DNA of 48,796 nucleotides from a virus. The notes beneath the pieces are model-generated. The model was not told the DNA's origin. It did not search any database and saw nothing but the letters and a program-made list of their open reading frames with translations. Position numbers and translations under genes: made by a program. Where the stretch lies: positions 1 through 48,796 of the IMG/VR virus record IMGVR_UViG_3300044940_000153; one strand, given 5' to 3'. This document shows, in pieces, positions 3,480 through 48,703 of this stretch (within the stretch, counting starts at the first letter, position 1; the number at the start of each line of letters is the position of its first letter).

Positions 3480-4050
3480 CCTTAAAGTAATTGATAACGG
3501 TTTGCTTAAAGTCTTGATAGGTACGGATGATTTCGACTTTGTAACCTTGCTTGCGTAAAGTTTCATGCGTTGTTAATTGGAGTGGGTCAATGCGCCCCGT
3601 TGGTGTTTTCAGTTCGATAAAGAGACCGCAATGCAGGATCGTTTCTTCTTTCGTTTCAACATCATCAAACAGTCCCTTATGAATGCGTATTTTCCGCTTC
3701 ACGTGGAAAATTGAAATGTCGGGAAAACCTGCATGATAGCCCTTGCGCTTTGCGGATGCTCCGCGATACCCGCCAACTTGGTTGGCTGTGTGGTTTAGGA
3801 TCGTATCCAACCCCATCGCTTCCGTGTATTCATAAAACCAATCCACACATGATTCATGCAATACAGCTTCGTCTTTCGGGAAGGACGCGATACGTGCTAA
3901 CCTATATTCATCTTTCGGGGATTCGTAGGTCGTTGGCTTTGGCATTTCGATTAGGGGTTTGTTGAACAAATCTTCAAACGGTCGTTTGTTTGGCCGTAGT
4001 GCATTAACGCCCTTGATGTTATAAATCTTCCTCCCGTACTTGCCTTTCAT
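3472..4050 (-). CDS. VRR-NUC-type PD-(D/E)XK endonuclease
   Basis: 192 aa. The C-terminal half carries the VRR-NUC signature: a small basic/Gly region (residues ~95-108), GFPDISIF (acidic residue), GLFIELKTPTGRID (E-x-K catalytic pair), then a Gln/Thr-rich helix and LRKQGYKVEIIRTYQDF. These proteins are structure-specific nucleases in phages and eukaryotic FAN1. The N-terminal ~65 residues are a basic extension. Inferred role: processing of branched recombination or replication DNA. Overlaps both neighbours by short stretches. Confidence 0.85.
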   Translation of the reverse strand: MKGKYGRKIYNIKGVNALRPNKRPFEDLFNKPLIEMPKPTTYESPKDEYRLARIASFPKDEAVLHESCVDWFYEYTEAMGLDTILNHTANQVGGYRGASAKRKGYHAGFPDISIFHVKRKIRIHKGLFDDVETKEETILHCGLFIELKTPTGRIDPLQLTTHETLRKQGYKVEIIRTYQDFKQTVINYFKDE

Positions 4051-18920: not shown

Positions 18921-19585
18921 AGTTTATATGTTTTAATAGTGCCAGACTTACCGACCGAAAAGATCGTAATTTCATCCGAAACTTCATTGCCATTCACCCG
19001 TAATAAATGAATGTATAACGATACTTGAAGGGCGTATTTTGACGCATAACTGTTATTCATATGCTCAAAAGGGTAGCTCATAAAGTTGCCAAACGGGTTT
19101 TCATCTGTCGGTGCGCGTCCGGTTTTGAGGTCTCCAACGTACCAAATCCCATCTTGATGCCAACACATATCAAGCGTGCCAGCAATCCCTGTTTCAGGAT
19201 CGCATAGCGGAACTTGCAAAAGCATTTCGGGATAGCGGGCTTTAAGGTCGTTAACTTCATTCGTGAAAAAGTGTTGATAGTAAGCCTTTTTGAAGGCTAC
19301 TTTTTCGGGTTCTTTACCTTCGTAAATCGTTTGAAACAAAGCATCTATCCGTGTTCCAAAGTCCCGCGCTTCAGCCGATTTTCGAGGCAAGTCATTCCAA
19401 CTTTCCAAAGCCCGTTCATCATTAGAGAATGGTAGCCGTTTGTAAATCTCAAATGTTAGTTCCGGTATATAAGCATCGCAAATCTTAGTTACCGACTCCA
19501 ATTCAATGCTATGGTCGTTAGGATACGCATAGGTGTGCGTATCCTTATCGAAAGCGACCGGGTATTTACGATTGATTTGTTGCAT
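18866..19585 (-). CDS. PD-(D/E)XK nuclease, RecB/Cas4-like
   Basis: 239 aa. Core motifs: GIAGTLDM (~134-141, acidic metal ligand), WYVGDLKTGR (~148-157, D-x-K), and KYALQVSLYIHLLRV (~183-197, Q-x3-Y motif IV). This is the RecB-like exonuclease layout of phage recombination nucleases. Overlaps the following gene and the upstream Sak4-like ATPase gene, making a likely exonuclease-annealing pair. Confidence 0.85.
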   Translation of the reverse strand: MQQINRKYPVAFDKDTHTYAYPNDHSIELESVTKICDAYIPELTFEIYKRLPFSNDERALESWNDLPRKSAEARDFGTRIDALFQTIYEGKEPEKVAFKKAYYQHFFTNEVNDLKARYPEMLLQVPLCDPETGIAGTLDMCWHQDGIWYVGDLKTGRAPTDENPFGNFMSYPFEHMNNSYASKYALQVSLYIHLLRVNGNEVSDEITIFSVGKSGTIKTYKLWYVKEIDQLLEMRRFKI

Positions 19586-20657
19586 TTTGGCGGGCTTCTA
19601 TGACCGGTTTGAGTTTCGGGTGATCAAGTAATTGCCGTTCCTTAACGTCAAAAGTTGCCATCAATTCGGCAAGGGGTGCATCGGAATTGGTAATCATAAT
19701 AGCGAGACCTTCCGCCTTAACGGCATCATCTTGCATCTTAGTGATACCGGCTTTTAATTTTTGTACCAACGTCTTTTCGTCCGGCATGCTGGTCTTAATC
19801 CAATTATCCGTTTTAGTCCAATACTCACCCCAACAAAGAGACTTAAATTCGTCTATTTTGGCGAGGGTTTCGGGTGAGTATTGACGTTGTGGGGTAGGTA
19901 GTGTGGCAGGAGTACTTGAAGCCGGCTGTTGCTCAATTACTGAAGGCTTAAAGTCTATGCCTTCCTCGCACCATTGCCGTAGTTTTTGCCCGTGTTGTAT
20001 AGTTATACGATCATACAACGTTTCAAATACCCCGGTATTATCTTTTTCGGGGCGGGCAATATGCTCTAAGTCTAAACGCAAATGAACATTTAATTCATAT
20101 TCTATGCCCTCCCTAAAGTCCTCTTTCAACCCAATTTTTTTAGGTGATTTAGTTGCCCGACCTTGTGCATTAATAACATCCTCAATCACATATTCAGACT
20201 TAACGCGGGATGTTAATATTATGTGAATATCTGACTGAATTATAGTGTTGACCAATAATTTCCAATCCGGCGAAACCTTTTTCCATGCGTCAAATGTACC
20301 ACCAAAAGAATCTTTTTTCTCTAAAATACCGCCTTCGCCTGCCCAAAAAACAGTCATCGTATCAAAGATTATTACCTTGAAACCCGCTTTTACACATTCA
20401 TTCACAACCTGCGCAAATCGTTGTGCAGAATAAGGTGCTGGGAATTCCGCATATTTATACTTTCCTTCGTTTCCAAATATATTGGCAGTTATTTCGCCAC
20501 GATTTTCTGTATCTATCAACAGAATTTCCTGTGGTGAATCACACAATCCTCGTGCTATAAGTAGCGCGGATGTCGTTTTGCCACTGCCGGACACGCCAGA
20601 AAGTAGCATTTTGGTTTTTACTTTATGCCGCTGGGCATCACGTATTTGAAGCAACAT
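19566..20657 (-). CDS. AAA_24/Sak4-like RecA-fold ATPase
   Basis: 363 aa. Walker A GVSGSGKTTSALLIARGL (~21-38), Walker B-like VIIFDTMTVFW (~95-105), a sensor segment IHIILTSRVK (~144-153), then a Pro/Ser/Thr-rich linker (~245-265) and a C-terminal helical domain. Resembles Sak4 single-strand annealing proteins that work with phage exonuclease and SSB. Ends overlapping the nuclease gene. The tRNA-like hairpin at 20681-20728 lies in its 5' leader. Confidence 0.85.
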   Translation of the reverse strand: MLLQIRDAQRHKVKTKMLLSGVSGSGKTTSALLIARGLCDSPQEILLIDTENRGEITANIFGNEGKYKYAEFPAPYSAQRFAQVVNECVKAGFKVIIFDTMTVFWAGEGGILEKKDSFGGTFDAWKKVSPDWKLLVNTIIQSDIHIILTSRVKSEYVIEDVINAQGRATKSPKKIGLKEDFREGIEYELNVHLRLDLEHIARPEKDNTGVFETLYDRITIQHGQKLRQWCEEGIDFKPSVIEQQPASSTPATLPTPQRQYSPETLAKIDEFKSLCWGEYWTKTDNWIKTSMPDEKTLVQKLKAGITKMQDDAVKAEGLAIMITNSDAPLAELMATFDVKERQLLDHPKLKPVIEARQNATNQS

Positions 20658-20680: not shown

Positions 20681-20728
20681 AAAACGCGTCGGGAGTCGAA
20701 CCCGAAACCGCCCTTTGCGACGCGTCTT
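20681..20728 (-). other. T-arm-like hairpin in 5' leader
   Basis: On the minus strand a perfect T-arm TCGGG-TTCGACT-CCCGA (20705-20689) is enclosed by AAGACGCG...CGCGTTTT, which could pair like an acceptor stem. The 14-nt segment between is too short for D and anticodon arms. The alternative fold AAGACGCGTCG/CGACGCGTTTT is an 11-bp stem ending in TTTTCTT and could attenuate transcription. Either a tRNA remnant or mimic, or a leader terminator for the ATPase gene. Upstream, CATATATG occurs twice (20758-20778). Confidence 0.4.
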
Positions 20729-20834
20729 TATCAAAAATCACTACTCTTTTAATACTTCATATATGATTTCCATATATGCTCCATTTTCAATTTCTACGAA
20801 AGACTAATTATTTGCCACTTTCTACTCCTTTCCG

Positions 20835-20865
20835 TTTGCGTGTCCCGTTTTTTTGACTATCTTTG
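20835..20865 (+). promoter_or_regulatory. Plus-strand Bacteroidota-type promoter
   Basis: TTTG (20835-20838), 19-bp spacer, TATCTTTG (20858-20865): full consensus. It points against the surrounding genes, into 20872-21036, which holds no convincing ORF. Confidence 0.75.
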
Positions 20866-20871
20866 CGCGTT

Positions 20872-21036
20872 GAATGTACCTGCTGTGAAGCAGTGCGATC
20901 TTTAGGTTGAACACCTAAATGGAGATACATAGCCTCCGTAATGGGGGGGGAGAACAATTCCCCGTAAAGATCAGACATTTGTTTTGTTTTTTGCTTTGCT
21001 TTGATGAGTTCATAGGGGCGAAAGCCCCTTTTCTTT
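20872..21036 (+). ncRNA. Structured plus-strand RNA of unknown class
   Basis: About 165 nt between a consensus promoter and an intrinsic terminator. Elements: hairpin CTGCT-GTGA-AGCAG (20880-20893); long-range helix GATCTTTA (20897-20904) with TAAAGATC (20965-20972), enclosing a possible TTTAGGT/ACCTAAA hairpin (20901-20919), GGAG/CTCC (20921-20937) and GGGG/CCCC (20947-20963); then a U-rich stretch. The TTTAGGT hairpin and the long-range helix compete for TTTA, so two states are possible. No known RNA family recognised. Confidence 0.6.
21014..21036 (+). terminator. Intrinsic terminator of plus-strand RNA
   Basis: AGGGGC-GAAA-GCCCCT followed by TTTCTTT on the plus strand: a 6-bp GC stem with a GNRA tetraloop. 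It ends exactly at the stop codon of the convergent minus gene. Confidence 0.8.
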
Positions 21037-21679
21037 AGGCATTGAGCGAATCTAATAAGGTATTCGAGTTAAATGCAATACCGCCTAATAATTCACATTG
21101 CATTTGATCCATTTTCCGACGACGATCTTGCGCGTCCTCATACTCCTTTTTCAGTGCGGTTTCCGTATTCACCGATAATTGTTCCTTTGACTTCAATGCC
21201 CGCCAAACCCAATATAAGCGATGATCGGCAAATTTGCCCCACGATTCGACTGCTTCACGATGATAAATTGACGACGAGTCAATGGATGGGTCATTAATGT
21301 AACTTTCGAGAAATTCGAGATACCATTCCGGTAGCGGATGCATAACCTCTGCTATGCTTGTTTGGAGCGTGTATTTGGAGCAAATAAAGAGGTCATCTAA
21401 CCACATGAATCGCATATCTTGAATATGTAATGCGATTGCATGGAAGTTGAAATGTTCTTTCGATTTTTCACAAGTACCGTTTAGCCAATCCTTACGATAC
21501 TCATTATCTTGAACCGAAAAAACGATTGCAGGACAAAGTGAAAGTAAGCAAGTTTCATAGCGAAAAGGCACTAAGGCAAGGAACATATCTTTTGATTCAA
21601 CGCATCTGAATACATCATCTTGCGTTTTCGGGGTTTTGACAAACGTGTCAAATGACGGTGTATTGAGTCTTGGTTGCAT
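21035..21679 (-). CDS. Hypothetical early protein
   Basis: 214 aa from the ATG at 21679; a GTG 36 nt upstream (21715) gives 226 aa and cannot be excluded. Rich in Cys, Trp and aromatics in the middle (RFMWLDDLFICSKYTLQTS), with a charged helical C-terminal third (EYEDAQDRRRKMDQMQCELL). Predicted cytoplasmic. No family recognised. First cistron after the iteron-linked RHH gene, hence possibly replication-associated. Confidence 0.65.
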   Translation of the reverse strand: MQPRLNTPSFDTFVKTPKTQDDVFRCVESKDMFLALVPFRYETCLLSLCPAIVFSVQDNEYRKDWLNGTCEKSKEHFNFHAIALHIQDMRFMWLDDLFICSKYTLQTSIAEVMHPLPEWYLEFLESYINDPSIDSSSIYHREAVESWGKFADHRLYWVWRALKSKEQLSVNTETALKKEYEDAQDRRRKMDQMQCELLGGIAFNSNTLLDSLNA

Positions 21680-21755
21680 TTGCTTTGCTGATTTGAGGTT
21701 GAAAGTTATTGACACGAAATTACGCTTTTTGTTGAAAACGAATATTTAATGAAAG

Positions 21756-22812: not shown

Positions 22813-22986
22813 TTATTAAACAATTGTTGAATAATGGTGGAATAAACATTAAATAAAACCCGAACATTTATTCAATGTATATTCAACAGTTATTCAACTT
22901 TTGTTGAACAATATTGCATACTTTATTCAACACTTATTCAACACTTATTCAACATATATTAAACAATTATTCAACTTTTATTCGGG
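22813..22986 (+). repeat. Phased 11-bp iteron array (TTATTCAAC)
   Basis: Units matching TTATTCAAC start at 22868 (TTATTCAAT), 22879 (one change), 22890, 22923, 22934, 22945, 22967 and, more degenerate, 22813, 22824, 22846, 22901, 22956 and 22978. All fall on one 11-bp grid across 174 bp; the position near 22912 is slipped by one and those at 22835 and 22857 are degenerate. Eleven base pairs is one helical turn, so all sites face the same side. Candidate replication origin, partition site or multimeric operator. A+T rich. Confidence 0.8.
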
Positions 22987-23213
22987 GTATGTTATGAACA
23001 CTCACTTGTGAATATTGCGATTTTTTACCGTTCACGCAAGTTATTAAGTTAGGATTATACATTTCATAAATTTGCATTCATAACTTGCATGAAATGAATT
23101 GCTATTGATTAATTTTTTTTAACTATTTCGCGGTTAACGGTATGAATACATATTTAACAATTATGCAATAAAAGGTGCATAATAGCAGGGGAAATGATAT
23201 GTAGTAGGGGTAA
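22987..23213. other. Intergenic A+T-rich region, inverted repeat
   Basis: No gene seen. It contains the inverted repeat CATTTCAT (23060-23067) and ATGAAATG (about 23089-23096), with TTGCATTCATAACTTGCAT between, and a plus-strand TAAATTTG inside the left arm. Downstream, TTAACTATTTCGCGGTTAA is another near-palindrome (about 23118-23136). Together with the neighbouring iterons this looks like an origin or control region. Confidence 0.4.
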
Positions 23214-30342: not shown

Positions 30343-30840
30343 TTATTCTTTTTGGTCAGGGGTTTGTGTTTCTGCCTTATCAATCAATTCGCCCTTTTCG
30401 TTAAAATCCGATAAGCGTTTTAATATCCAAACAGGCACAGCATATCCCAATTTCCCCGCATTCGTAAGAATGGATACAGTTTCATTGATAATGAGACTGC
30501 AATAGATACCGTATTTGACGATGCTAAAAACCGTTTGCCCAATGCCTGATATAGGAATATGTTGCAATACGTGGCAAAGGATAATCAAAGCGGAATACAC
30601 GATCATTTTCCCAAACACCCGCTTGTATTCCTGACTGCTGAACTTATGTTTTTTCCATGCAAAGTACATCCCAAGCAGGGTATCGGTTACGGATAACACA
30701 AAAAGGAATCCGAGAAACTCCCAATCCGCGAACACGTATTTCTCAAACAGCGCGAGAAAGAATCCCGCGACCCCGCCAAACGGCGCAACTTCCAAAAGCC
30801 TGTACATTCCTTTCGTTGTTATGTAGTCTAAAGAGATCAT
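30343..30840 (-). CDS. Holin, phage_holin_4-like
   Basis: 165 aa. Four hydrophobic segments: ~20-34 (GGVAGFFLALFEKYV), ~42-62 (FLGFLFVLSVTDTLLGMYFAW), ~77-93 (MIVYSALIILCHVL) and ~103-123, then a charged C-terminus. The motif DTLLGMYFAWKKHKFSS and the late NETVSILTNAGKLGY are typical of the Bacteroidota/Firmicutes holin family (phage_holin_4). Forms inner-membrane pores that trigger lysis. Lies just upstream of the tape measure. Confidence 0.88.
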   Translation of the reverse strand: MISLDYITTKGMYRLLEVAPFGGVAGFFLALFEKYVFADWEFLGFLFVLSVTDTLLGMYFAWKKHKFSSQEYKRVFGKMIVYSALIILCHVLQHIPISGIGQTVFSIVKYGIYCSLIINETVSILTNAGKLGYAVPVWILKRLSDFNEKGELIDKAETQTPDQKE

Positions 30841-30843
30841 ATA

Positions 30844-31326
30844 TTAAGCTGTTACGTAGTTGATTTCACTAAGCCAACGAACCCCACCCTTGAATCGTTT
30901 TGCAGATACCATTGAACCCGCAACCAATCGCACCCAATATTCACTGCCTTTCTTAAGTACATATGACACACCGGAAATAAATTGTGTATCGGATGTCATA
31001 ACAAGCCCGGCGGAGGGTAGGGAAATTATCGTATCACCCGCGTCCGGTATATTGAACACAGGTAAGTATTGATGCCATTCTTCAGGAACAAGGAACTCAC
31101 AACCATTGACCAACATGCCAGCTGTATCGTACTGAATATCGTATTCAATACCGTGTATATGAATATTGCTTACAATAAGTTGCAAACTCCATTTTGAAAA
31201 ATCGGACGGGTCTGCAAACCCAATGCCTGAACCCAAGAAATCAATTTTTAAATCCGCCGGAGTCCCCGCTGTAATTTCGGATTTCACAACCCTACCGCGC
31301 GTTTCAAGTAAAAAATCTAATGCCAT
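30844..31326 (-). CDS. Hypothetical virion protein
   Basis: 160 aa, beta-rich (IHIHGIEYDIQYDTAGMLVNG, VSYVLKKGSEYWVRLVAGSM). The start overlaps the stop of the preceding virion gene (TAATG at 31326). Probably a small structural or tail-associated protein. No family recognised. Confidence 0.6.
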   Translation of the reverse strand: MALDFLLETRGRVVKSEITAGTPADLKIDFLGSGIGFADPSDFSKWSLQLIVSNIHIHGIEYDIQYDTAGMLVNGCEFLVPEEWHQYLPVFNIPDAGDTIISLPSAGLVMTSDTQFISGVSYVLKKGSEYWVRLVAGSMVSAKRFKGGVRWLSEINYVTA

Positions 31327-32138
31327 TATACGATACTTTTATCAATGTAAATATAGTCCGATCTTAGTTCACGCTGTACGGTAGTCCCCGCCGGTTTGCG
31401 GTTCGCAAAAACAAGGTTGAAATTCGGAACGCCGTTCGCAGGGAACGTAATACCCGAACCTGATAACATGGTTTCGGTAATAGTATTGATTAGGGTATAA
31501 TCCTGCACGCCTTCAATGCCTGCATAGATTTCAATGCGTTGATTTCCGGCAAAGGGCGCGCCCGTGTAAATGCGAATCTCAAACGTGTGCCACCGATCCA
31601 CCGACGTTGACCATTCCACGCCCGTATTAAGATCATATGTTCCGCCCGTTCCAATTACCCGAAACCGCCATTGATTTGAGTTGCCGAAACCTGCATAGTC
31701 AAAGTACCAAAACATCGCAAACGCAGGTGTAAATGAATTTGTGTTTGCCCATCCAAAACATGCCATTTGGCTGTTTGTCCCCGAAAACGTGGGGCTTGGA
31801 GCAATCGCTTTCATCTGCCAGACCACCTCTGCAACACAGCGCGAAATGTTAATACCACCCCCGCCAACCGCACCGGCTAGCGAATCAATGCACTGTCCTA
31901 CGTTTATACTACTGCCGGTCAAAAGGCGACGGATGCCATCGTGATTGAATTCCGGCGTGCCTTGTGTGGGGGACGGCGCGCCACCCGTTGCCGTGTTGAA
32001 CATAGGAATATCCGCACCCGTCAAAGAAGTTACAAAGTTTTCTTCAAGTGGGAAACCGGGATAGGATTCTAAACCCAAATCTTTGAGCAATAGTACATCA
32101 CCCGTAATTAAGTCGATATATGATTTACCTTTTCCCAT
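31326..32138 (-). CDS. Virion protein with lectin-like jelly roll
   Basis: 270 aa. Residues ~110-255 show the strand pattern of concanavalin/LamG-like domains: FAMFWYFDYAGFGN, WRFRVIGTGGTYDLNTG, WHTFEIRIYTG and QRIEIYAGIEG. The N-terminus has a Gly/Ser/Thr linker and a Cys. A glycan-binding appendage or head/tail decoration protein is likely. Stop overlaps the next start. Confidence 0.6.
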   Translation of the reverse strand: MGKGKSYIDLITGDVLLLKDLGLESYPGFPLEENFVTSLTGADIPMFNTATGGAPSPTQGTPEFNHDGIRRLLTGSSINVGQCIDSLAGAVGGGGINISRCVAEVVWQMKAIAPSPTFSGTNSQMACFGWANTNSFTPAFAMFWYFDYAGFGNSNQWRFRVIGTGGTYDLNTGVEWSTSVDRWHTFEIRIYTGAPFAGNQRIEIYAGIEGVQDYTLINTITETMLSGSGITFPANGVPNFNLVFANRKPAGTTVQRELRSDYIYIDKSIV

Positions 32139-32140
32139 AA

Positions 32141-32716
32141 CTATGCGTAAGTTAATGATGCTCTATTTGCCCAAACCTGATCGAATAGACCCGTGCCGGC
32201 GTATTCAATCGTTTCACCCGAAACGCCCGAAGTTATGCGCATAATTTGCCAGACGGGCGAACTTTCGTTACTGCCGATTTCGGCTTTTCCAACATATGTT
32301 ACCGTAGCCGACGCGCTATCTGAACGAACCGCGTAAGACGTATTAACAGTTGTTGCCGTAATAGTTCCTGTTACTTGTGTAATCTGATCGCCATTCGTTT
32401 GATTGTCGAGAATGGATTGCAGGGTTGCCTCCGTTGCGATACCTGATGAACTGCCAACCGCCGGAATGATCGCATTTAGAGACGTTTTACGTGCTTCAAT
32501 CGCTACTAAGTCGGTTGATTCGATAATCCATTGCGAATCCCCGCCCGTCATGGTTAACTGAAAGTTCGCACCGGATTCAATGATATTGAGAGATTGCCCC
32601 GCCTCAAAGGGTATCTCAACGTCGGGTTCTCCGGCGCGCGAAATAACAACAGCCTTAGATGTTGCCGATTGTCCCGTTATGTCGCTTTCAAGAATCGTTA
32701 TCGTTTGCCCAGCCAT
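32141..32716 (-). CDS. Virion-associated beta-strand protein
   Basis: 191 aa, Ser/Thr/Ile rich with no Cys. The N-terminus (~1-75) carries repeated short strands (TITILESDITGQ, FQLTMTGGDSQWIIES). The middle segment GIATEATLQSILDNQTNGDQ resembles trimeric fibre linkers. The C-terminal ~60 residues are beta-rich. Likely trimeric tail fibre or decoration protein; abuts the lectin-like gene. Confidence 0.55.
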   Translation of the reverse strand: MAGQTITILESDITGQSATSKAVVISRAGEPDVEIPFEAGQSLNIIESGANFQLTMTGGDSQWIIESTDLVAIEARKTSLNAIIPAVGSSSGIATEATLQSILDNQTNGDQITQVTGTITATTVNTSYAVRSDSASATVTYVGKAEIGSNESSPVWQIMRITSGVSGETIEYAGTGLFDQVWANRASLTYA

Positions 32717-47903: not shown

Positions 47904-48010
47904 CATTTTATAACCGTCTAACTATTGCACAGTATTGAGCAACCTGCTATCTTTGTATCATAATCTTTCACTCAAACAAACAGCAACAATGACAACGCAA
48001 AACAACACCC
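47901..48010 (+). repeat. Promoter-leader module, copy 2
   Basis: Second copy of the 110-bp module at 47355-47464 with the same offset of the ATG (88 bp). The downstream coding sequences are not related. Confidence 0.9.
47925..47955 (+). promoter_or_regulatory. Plus-operon promoter 2
   Basis: TTG (47925-47927), 20-bp spacer, TATCTTTG (47948-47955). Same layout as promoter 1. Confidence 0.8.
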
Positions 48011-48300
48011 CCAAAAAATTCTACGTAATCGCAGCTCTTGGTGAGATAACAATCTCCCAAGAGCCTACTTTTCCCTGCGATGCGCAAATAGAATGCGCAA
48101 CGCAAAGTGAAGCCGAGGCGATCGCCTCGGCTATGAAAAAAGAAAGGTGGTACGTAAGTACCACGTACGGAACGACGTGGCTGGCACCCGTCTCTCGTCT
48201 GAGAGACGACTACTCGTACGATGCGCTTTTTTACGGTACATATCAAGAGGCCTGGCGGGAGTATCGCCGCCGGAGGGACGAGGAATGGGCAAATAGATAG
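47989..48300 (+). CDS. Small protein, plus operon gene 3
   Basis: 103 aa from the ATG 47989 in the duplicated leader. After MTTQNNT comes a short alpha/beta protein: KKFYVIAALGEITIS, then a possible Cys pair (PCDAQIECATQSEAEA), WYVSTTYGTTWLAPVS, and a basic helical tail REYRRRRDEEW. Function unknown. Early expression and position beside a regulator suggest a host-takeover role. Confidence 0.75.
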   Translation: MTTQNNTPKKFYVIAALGEITISQEPTFPCDAQIECATQSEAEAIASAMKKERWYVSTTYGTTWLAPVSRLRDDYSYDALFYGTYQEAWREYRRRRDEEWANR

Positions 48301-48319
48301 AATTCAAAGCAAACAAACT

Positions 48320-48574
48320 ATGCACCAAATAAACTTCGCTCATCCCCCGCACGAGTTGCGGGGGGTGATTCTTGATCCAAGCGGGGGCGTTGAATATGTC
48401 ATCATATTTGACGACCCAGAAATCGGAGTATATTCCAATGATGTTTATAGTTGGAATTATATATATGAAGAATCAGTTAAAGAGACTTTTTGGAGTCTCG
48501 AAAACCGCAACGCACTGCTGTATCAAGCGTCCGGCAGGGATTTGTTTTTTGTAGAAAGGAAAGGTTCGTTATGA
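48320..48574 (+). CDS. Small acidic protein, plus operon gene 4
   Basis: 84 aa from the ATG 48320, 19 nt after the previous stop, preceded by AAACAAACT, an A-rich start context like the leader repeats. Acidic (VEYVIIFDDPEIGVYSNDVY) with a repeated aromatic pattern. Function unknown. Ends 3 nt before an intrinsic terminator. Confidence 0.7.
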   Translation: MHQINFAHPPHELRGVILDPSGGVEYVIIFDDPEIGVYSNDVYSWNYIYEESVKETFWSLENRNALLYQASGRDLFFVERKGSL

Positions 48575-48577
48575 TGC

Positions 48578-48605
48578 AAAGGTCTCTAATTAGAGACCTT
48601 TTTTA
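48578..48605 (+). terminator. Intrinsic terminator of plus operon
   Basis: AAAGGTCTCT-AATT-AGAGACCTTT, a perfect 10-bp stem (7 bp GC-bearing core GGTCTCT/AGAGACC) running into six T. Confidence 0.9.
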
Positions 48606-48703
48606 TTCCCGAAACTGCGCACCATATTCATCCCGTCCGGACGTGTCAATATTCAAAACGCCGTCTATGTCTAAGAATGACTTTCATCAATAACTTAGTA
48701 AAA

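Follow-up and report, generated by a model that had tools for sequence, protein, structure and literature searches.

Control of genes by antisense RNA is well described in enterobacterial phages. The precedents include P22 sar, sas and the OOP RNAs of P22 and lambda (PMC12197685, PMC13397905), and for lambda OOP it has been reported that mRNA decay is promoted through RNase III (PMC12197685). In Bacteroides, with the promoter consensus TTTG/TAnnTTTG, cis-antisense RNAs of 78-128 nt have been described (PMC7366714), and antisense independent transcripts are known in Flavobacterium (PMC9723704). The phylum has a TAHHTTTG promoter box, does not use Shine-Dalgarno sequences and favours upstream adenines (PMC6847099). 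Antisense transcription in Bacteroidota may partly be noise arising from chance promoters (PMC7366714), and a caution about noise is also given in PMC9723704. A search covering part of the open-access literature gave nothing on Bacteroides phages combining antisense RNA and RNA-seq.

The locus considered here lies in a stretch of viral DNA of 48,796 nucleotides (IMG/VR record IMGVR_UViG_3300044940_000153), called the window below, and is probably a sense/antisense pair in the recombination operon of a phage whose host group, read only from the style of promoter and leader, is probably Bacteroidota (Table 1). According to the best reading, to which slightly better than even confidence is given, the plus strand would encode a cis-antisense RNA which represses a small minus-strand gene and perhaps tunes the Sak4-like gene downstream of it. 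The predicted RNA would pair without a mismatch with the 5' UTR, the start codon and codons 1-36 (of 56) of the small gene. Because it spans the translation start it is probably a local off-switch, and since the small gene is situated directly upstream of the Sak4-like gene, the latter may be tuned too. The layout has what is expected of a cis-antisense RNA: a predicted promoter of its own opposite the target gene, full complementarity to the target over its translation start, a real gene on the opposite strand and a defined 3' end at an intrinsic terminator predicted in both phages compared. No switch of GC skew is seen at the site. The original prediction had proposed a dedicated regulatory or decoy RNA, possibly with two states; a plus-strand unit is indeed supported by a promoter of the phage's own class and by the promoter, terminator and length found in a relative, but nothing speaks for a decoy, and the layout fits a cis-antisense RNA to the small gene better than either a decoy or a two-state switch.

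Table 1. Positions of the features of the locus in the window (L002, the relative)
Feature	Position	Strand	Basis or remark
Antisense RNA promoter TTTG-N19-TATCTTTG, Bacteroidota sigma-ABfr type	20835..20865	+	Predicted; one of five phage-class sites
Predicted antisense RNA, ~167 nt, untranslated	20870..21036	+	Promoter-to-terminator span; like arrangement and length in L002 3714-3895
Intrinsic terminator AGGGGC-GAAA-GCCCCT, then TTTCTTT	21014..21036	+	Sequence; counterpart in relative
Shared hairpin H4 CTGCT-GTGA-AGCAG	20880..20893	.	Identical in L002; GNRA loop on plus strand
Shared hairpin H3 TAGGT-TGAAC-ACCTA	20903..20917	.	7 bp in window, 5 bp in L002
Shared hairpin H2 GGAG-N9-CTCC	20921..20937	.	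Closing pair: plus U-G (window)/C-G (L002); minus C-A/C-G
Shared hairpin H1 GGGGA-N7-TCCCC	20947..20963	.	Next inner pair: plus G-U (window)/A-U (L002); minus A-C/A-U
Small protein gene, 56 aa (48 aa in L002), likely target	20808..20978	-	Conserved ORF, A-rich leader
5' UTR of small gene, A-rich, CAAAGCAAAAAACAAAACAA before ATG	20979..21034	-	Wholly covered by predicted antisense RNA
Sak4-like AAA ATPase / ssDNA-annealing recombinase gene, downstream of small gene	19566..20657	-	PHROG 124, E 6e-14; Pfam AAA_24
Gene upstream of small gene	21035..21715	-	32% identity to a gene of the relative

One relative was found, L002 (IMGVR_UViG_3300045902_000159). Viral contigs were searched with the Sak4 protein and its alignment, the upstream protein, the small-protein alignment and DNA patterns, genome contigs with the Sak4 and small-protein alignments, and phages and plasmids by tblastn of the small protein; these searches yielded nothing but L002, four further pattern matches being due to chance. 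Conservation is therefore judged from a single comparison, as only one relative was present in the collections searched. The promoter, the terminator, their spacing and the length of about 167 nt all recur in it. Elsewhere, positions 30376-32438 of the window are 93% identical to the relative but run the other way round from the remaining shared blocks, which points to mosaic exchange.

By its pattern of substitution the small minus-strand gene is coding. Its protein shares 36 of 48 aligned residues with L002 (75%), the sole internal indel being one of 6 nt, and the 48-codon version occupies the same place before the same Sak4-like gene. Over the 48 codons 12 amino-acid changes are found against a mean of 18.9 under random placement of the substitutions (P=0.0005), and within the first 38 codons the frame of the ORF gives P=0.024, with no significant deficit in any other frame. 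The leader is 75% A, as suits a phylum that favours adenines in this place (PMC6847099) and at a level reached by 0.014% of background 20-mers, and the 5' UTR is poorly conserved except for the terminator hairpin, which starts right after the stop codon of the upstream gene. The small protein has no PHROG, Pfam or NCBIfam match and its structure is poorly predicted (pLDDT 65, pTM 0.27). It is charged and not hydrophobic (Kyte-Doolittle maxima of 0.44 and 0.45 for a span of 19 aa, with net charges of +4 and +2); a type I toxin-antitoxin pair, which calls for a small hydrophobic membrane toxin, was rejected on these values. The claim that the region contains no credible ORF thus holds for the plus strand, where a 39-codon frame has no conserved start, but not for the minus strand with its conserved ORF of 56 codons. 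L002 keeps this opposite-strand ORF and has lost an 8-bp helix of the window, and so goes half of the way towards the homologue with an ORF instead of the helices that had been named beforehand as counter-evidence.

The 39-codon frame (20919-21038) also gives rise to another explanation, in which the plus-strand RNA is translated into a 39-aa peptide, hydrophobic over part of its length, in the manner of a type I toxin pair. In the window MEIHSLRNGGGEQFPVKIRHLFCFLLCFDEFIGAKAPFL is an open frame, but its ATG is absent in L002, where a stop codon cuts the C-terminal part as well; plus-strand frames are without significant coding constraint (lowest P 0.09), this one extends across the terminator, and the small protein of the minus strand is not hydrophobic either. 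The peptide is considered barely credible.

Downstream, the Sak4-like protein has 79% amino-acid identity with that of L002. Between it and the small gene, at 20682-20727(-), a conserved element resembling a tRNA T-arm (TCGGG-TTCGACT-CCCGA) sits on a stem of 7 bp (AGACGCG/CGCGTTT) like that of an acceptor arm; D and anticodon arms are missing. L002 has the element almost unaltered (3934-3985), its predicted minimum-energy fold differs from the tRNA-like one, and it may serve for RNase P-type processing, act as an attenuator (TTTTCTT comes next) or be what is left of a tRNA; for a reading as attP/tRNA, one pattern scan of viral contigs found no other copy.

The plus-strand promoter had been predicted from its two boxes and is present as described; counting as in PMC6847099 and PMC9723704, which place the box at -12 to -5, transcription would start at about 20870. 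The tight motif TTGN19-20TATCTTTG (TTG-N19/20-TATCTTTG) has five sites in the window, where simulated sequence leads one to expect 0.09; the spacing range of 19-20 was picked after looking, and widening it to 17-21 leaves the count at five with an expectation of 0.245. The loose consensus TTTGN17-21TANNTTTG shows no enrichment over chance in the window (3 found, 1.92 expected). Two of the other sites, 47379(+) and 47925(+), lie ahead of plus-strand genes and are almost the same across the promoter region; 23328(-), in a long intergenic region just past a terminator, and 8045(-), with an A-rich leader and ATG behind it, also seem to open transcription units. Since the tight motif is far above chance and the other sites head genes or seem to head units, the promoter at 20836(+) is assigned to the phage's own class. 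In L002 TATCTTTG is kept with TTG 18 nt upstream, the TTGC context being absent there, and an extended promoter, CTATTGCAC-N17-CTATCTTTG, had no match in a scan of viral contigs. At 23306-23215(-) a full phage-type promoter is followed after about 85 nt by a 7-bp terminator with TTTTTT, making a candidate small RNA, and a similar short promoter-terminator unit is found in the genome of the relative (G001 16450-16388(-)). The AT-rich intergenic stretch 22860-23010(-) contains many near-repeats of TTGAATAA/TGTTGAATA, possibly replication-origin iterons or regulator sites.

At the other end the predicted GNRA-capped intrinsic terminator is confirmed as a GAAA-capped GGGGC/GCCCC hairpin with a T-run. 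The relative has in the same place GGAGGGGC-TTGC-GCCCCTTTTTT (L007 14452-14477), that is, the same stem with another loop and a longer T-run. In both phages the T-run comes after the stem when the plus strand is read, and neither has one after it on the minus strand.

These signals bear on the explanation that only the small minus-strand gene matters, the plus-strand signals being coincidental or noise and the constraint coming from hairpins of the sense mRNA that serve operon stability or translation. It is possible, if rather doubtful. Antisense starts are common in Bacteroidota, with 24% of start sites (PMC7366714), and TATCTTTG overlies the conserved codons Arg-Lys-Asp, so that coding could preserve it, which counts against the promoter, as do the spacing of 18 and the missing TTGC context in L002. 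Such a coincidence is harder to reconcile with a promoter that is one of the five sites of so rare a class and with a terminator whose T-run is on the plus strand in both phages.

The nucleotides of the small gene are conserved to a degree that its protein does not explain. Only 2/17 of its fourfold-degenerate sites differ between the window and L002, against 50/89 in the first 240 codons of the Sak4-like gene (Fisher P=0.001) and 30/54 in the exonuclease gene (Fisher P=0.002); in the other shared genes, outside one block of 93% identity, 7 of 457 runs of 17 fourfold sites are as conserved. Recent exchange of a segment does not explain this, because nonsynonymous change is not low (12/48 codons), and low fourfold change without low nonsynonymous change means that something besides coding constrains the nucleotides. 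It can be said that comparison of the two phages shows a conserved small gene, nucleotide constraint beyond coding and a conserved putative promoter and terminator. In a recoding test the codon choice gave more local hairpin stability than random choice, at P 0.013-0.08 depending on strand and genome.

The hairpins H1-H4 form on both strands, as they are near-perfect inverted repeats, and may serve either. In L002 the sense strand also has an unusually stable predicted fold (z -4.06) that includes these four hairpins, which favours the explanation by sense mRNA alone; against it, the two variable stem pairs (H1 inner, H2 outer) stay paired, as G-U, only on the plus strand and become A-C mismatches on the minus strand. 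These G-U pairs, two events only, lean towards the plus-strand RNA as the owner of the hairpins. Substitutions are rarer in stems than elsewhere with P 0.04-0.1 for short-range folds, the value rising up to 0.6 with other settings, and in a genome-wide regression scan the stability of the locus ranks an unremarkable 76 of 2434 stretches. With weak conservation of stems, modest recoding P values and ordinary genome-wide stability, structure carries secondary weight here. In both genomes it is another region, 47940-48625(+), that folds most strongly; it matches the start of the relative's contig with 84% identity and holds overlapping small ORFs with very low synonymous change (2/23 fourfold sites differ in 48221-48574).

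That the plus-strand RNA works in trans, as a structured regulator or decoy with a two-state fold aimed at RNAs or proteins of the host or at others of the phage, is decidedly improbable. The 166 nt of the plus strand have a stable predicted fold (z -3.2, and about -3.2 in both phages), one shared hairpin has a GNRA-type loop and the hairpin sequences are conserved, but the overall predicted folds of the window and L002 differ. The long-range 8-bp helix GATCTTTA (20897-20904)/TAAAGATC (20965-20972) that the original prediction described is present in the window and lost in L002, where GATCT of one arm falls within the 6-nt deletion; the competing TTTAGGT/ACCTAAA hairpin is likewise real in the window but shrinks from 7 to 5 bp in L002. 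The supposed two-state switch finds no evidence, and a riboswitch was rejected as well, since the deletion in L002 removes the larger part of one arm of that helix and the competing folds are not conserved. The suggested Rfam search gave no match in the window, the best sub-threshold hit being a snoRNA with E 0.03 and 20 of 50 bits. No other start region of the phage pairs nearly as well as the cis target, in a comparison made without a shuffle baseline.

In the cis-antisense reading a host-type plus-strand promoter would start the RNA at about 20870 and the intrinsic terminator would end it at about 21036. The short hairpins common to both strands may be the first contact points, after which the RNA would pair with the mRNA of the small gene, ribosome binding would be blocked and the mRNA exposed to double-strand cleavage, so that the small protein is kept low and the downstream recombinase transcript is perhaps lowered too. 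Production of the RNA, repression and its route are steps that we infer from the arrangement of the sequence. A bolder proposal is that a Bacteroidota phage uses a dedicated antisense RNA, whose hairpin array doubles as the coding sequence of a 48-56-aa protein, for timing of a Sak4-like recombinase operon; this is regarded as unlikely. If true, the locus would be a compact test case, with a small gene overlapped over two-thirds of its length and under strong synonymous-site constraint beside a recombinase. The locus also illustrates that a 'noncoding' reading of one strand can conceal a gene on the other.

Among known systems, a type I toxin-antitoxin pair likewise places a small ORF opposite an antisense RNA, but the small protein here is charged and the pair is inside a conserved operon. 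P22 sar, lambda OOP and DonS share the layout of the locus without known sequence kinship. DonS comes from Bacteroidota, where short antisense RNAs (78-128 nt) have a negative effect on the opposite gene (PMC7366714); they lie opposite susC homologues of glycan-use loci and not a phage gene, and the RNA predicted here is longer. P22 sar is, in a like manner, a short phage RNA which pairs with a phage mRNA and hinders translation initiation (PMC12197685, PMC13397905), but it is 68/69 nt long, targets ant in another host, and its action is experimental while that of the present RNA is predicted. Lambda OOP is similarly a short antisense RNA within an early phage operon near replication genes; it differs in being 77 nt long and antisense to cII in another host, whereas the candidate RNA of this locus would cover the whole 5' UTR and the start of its target.
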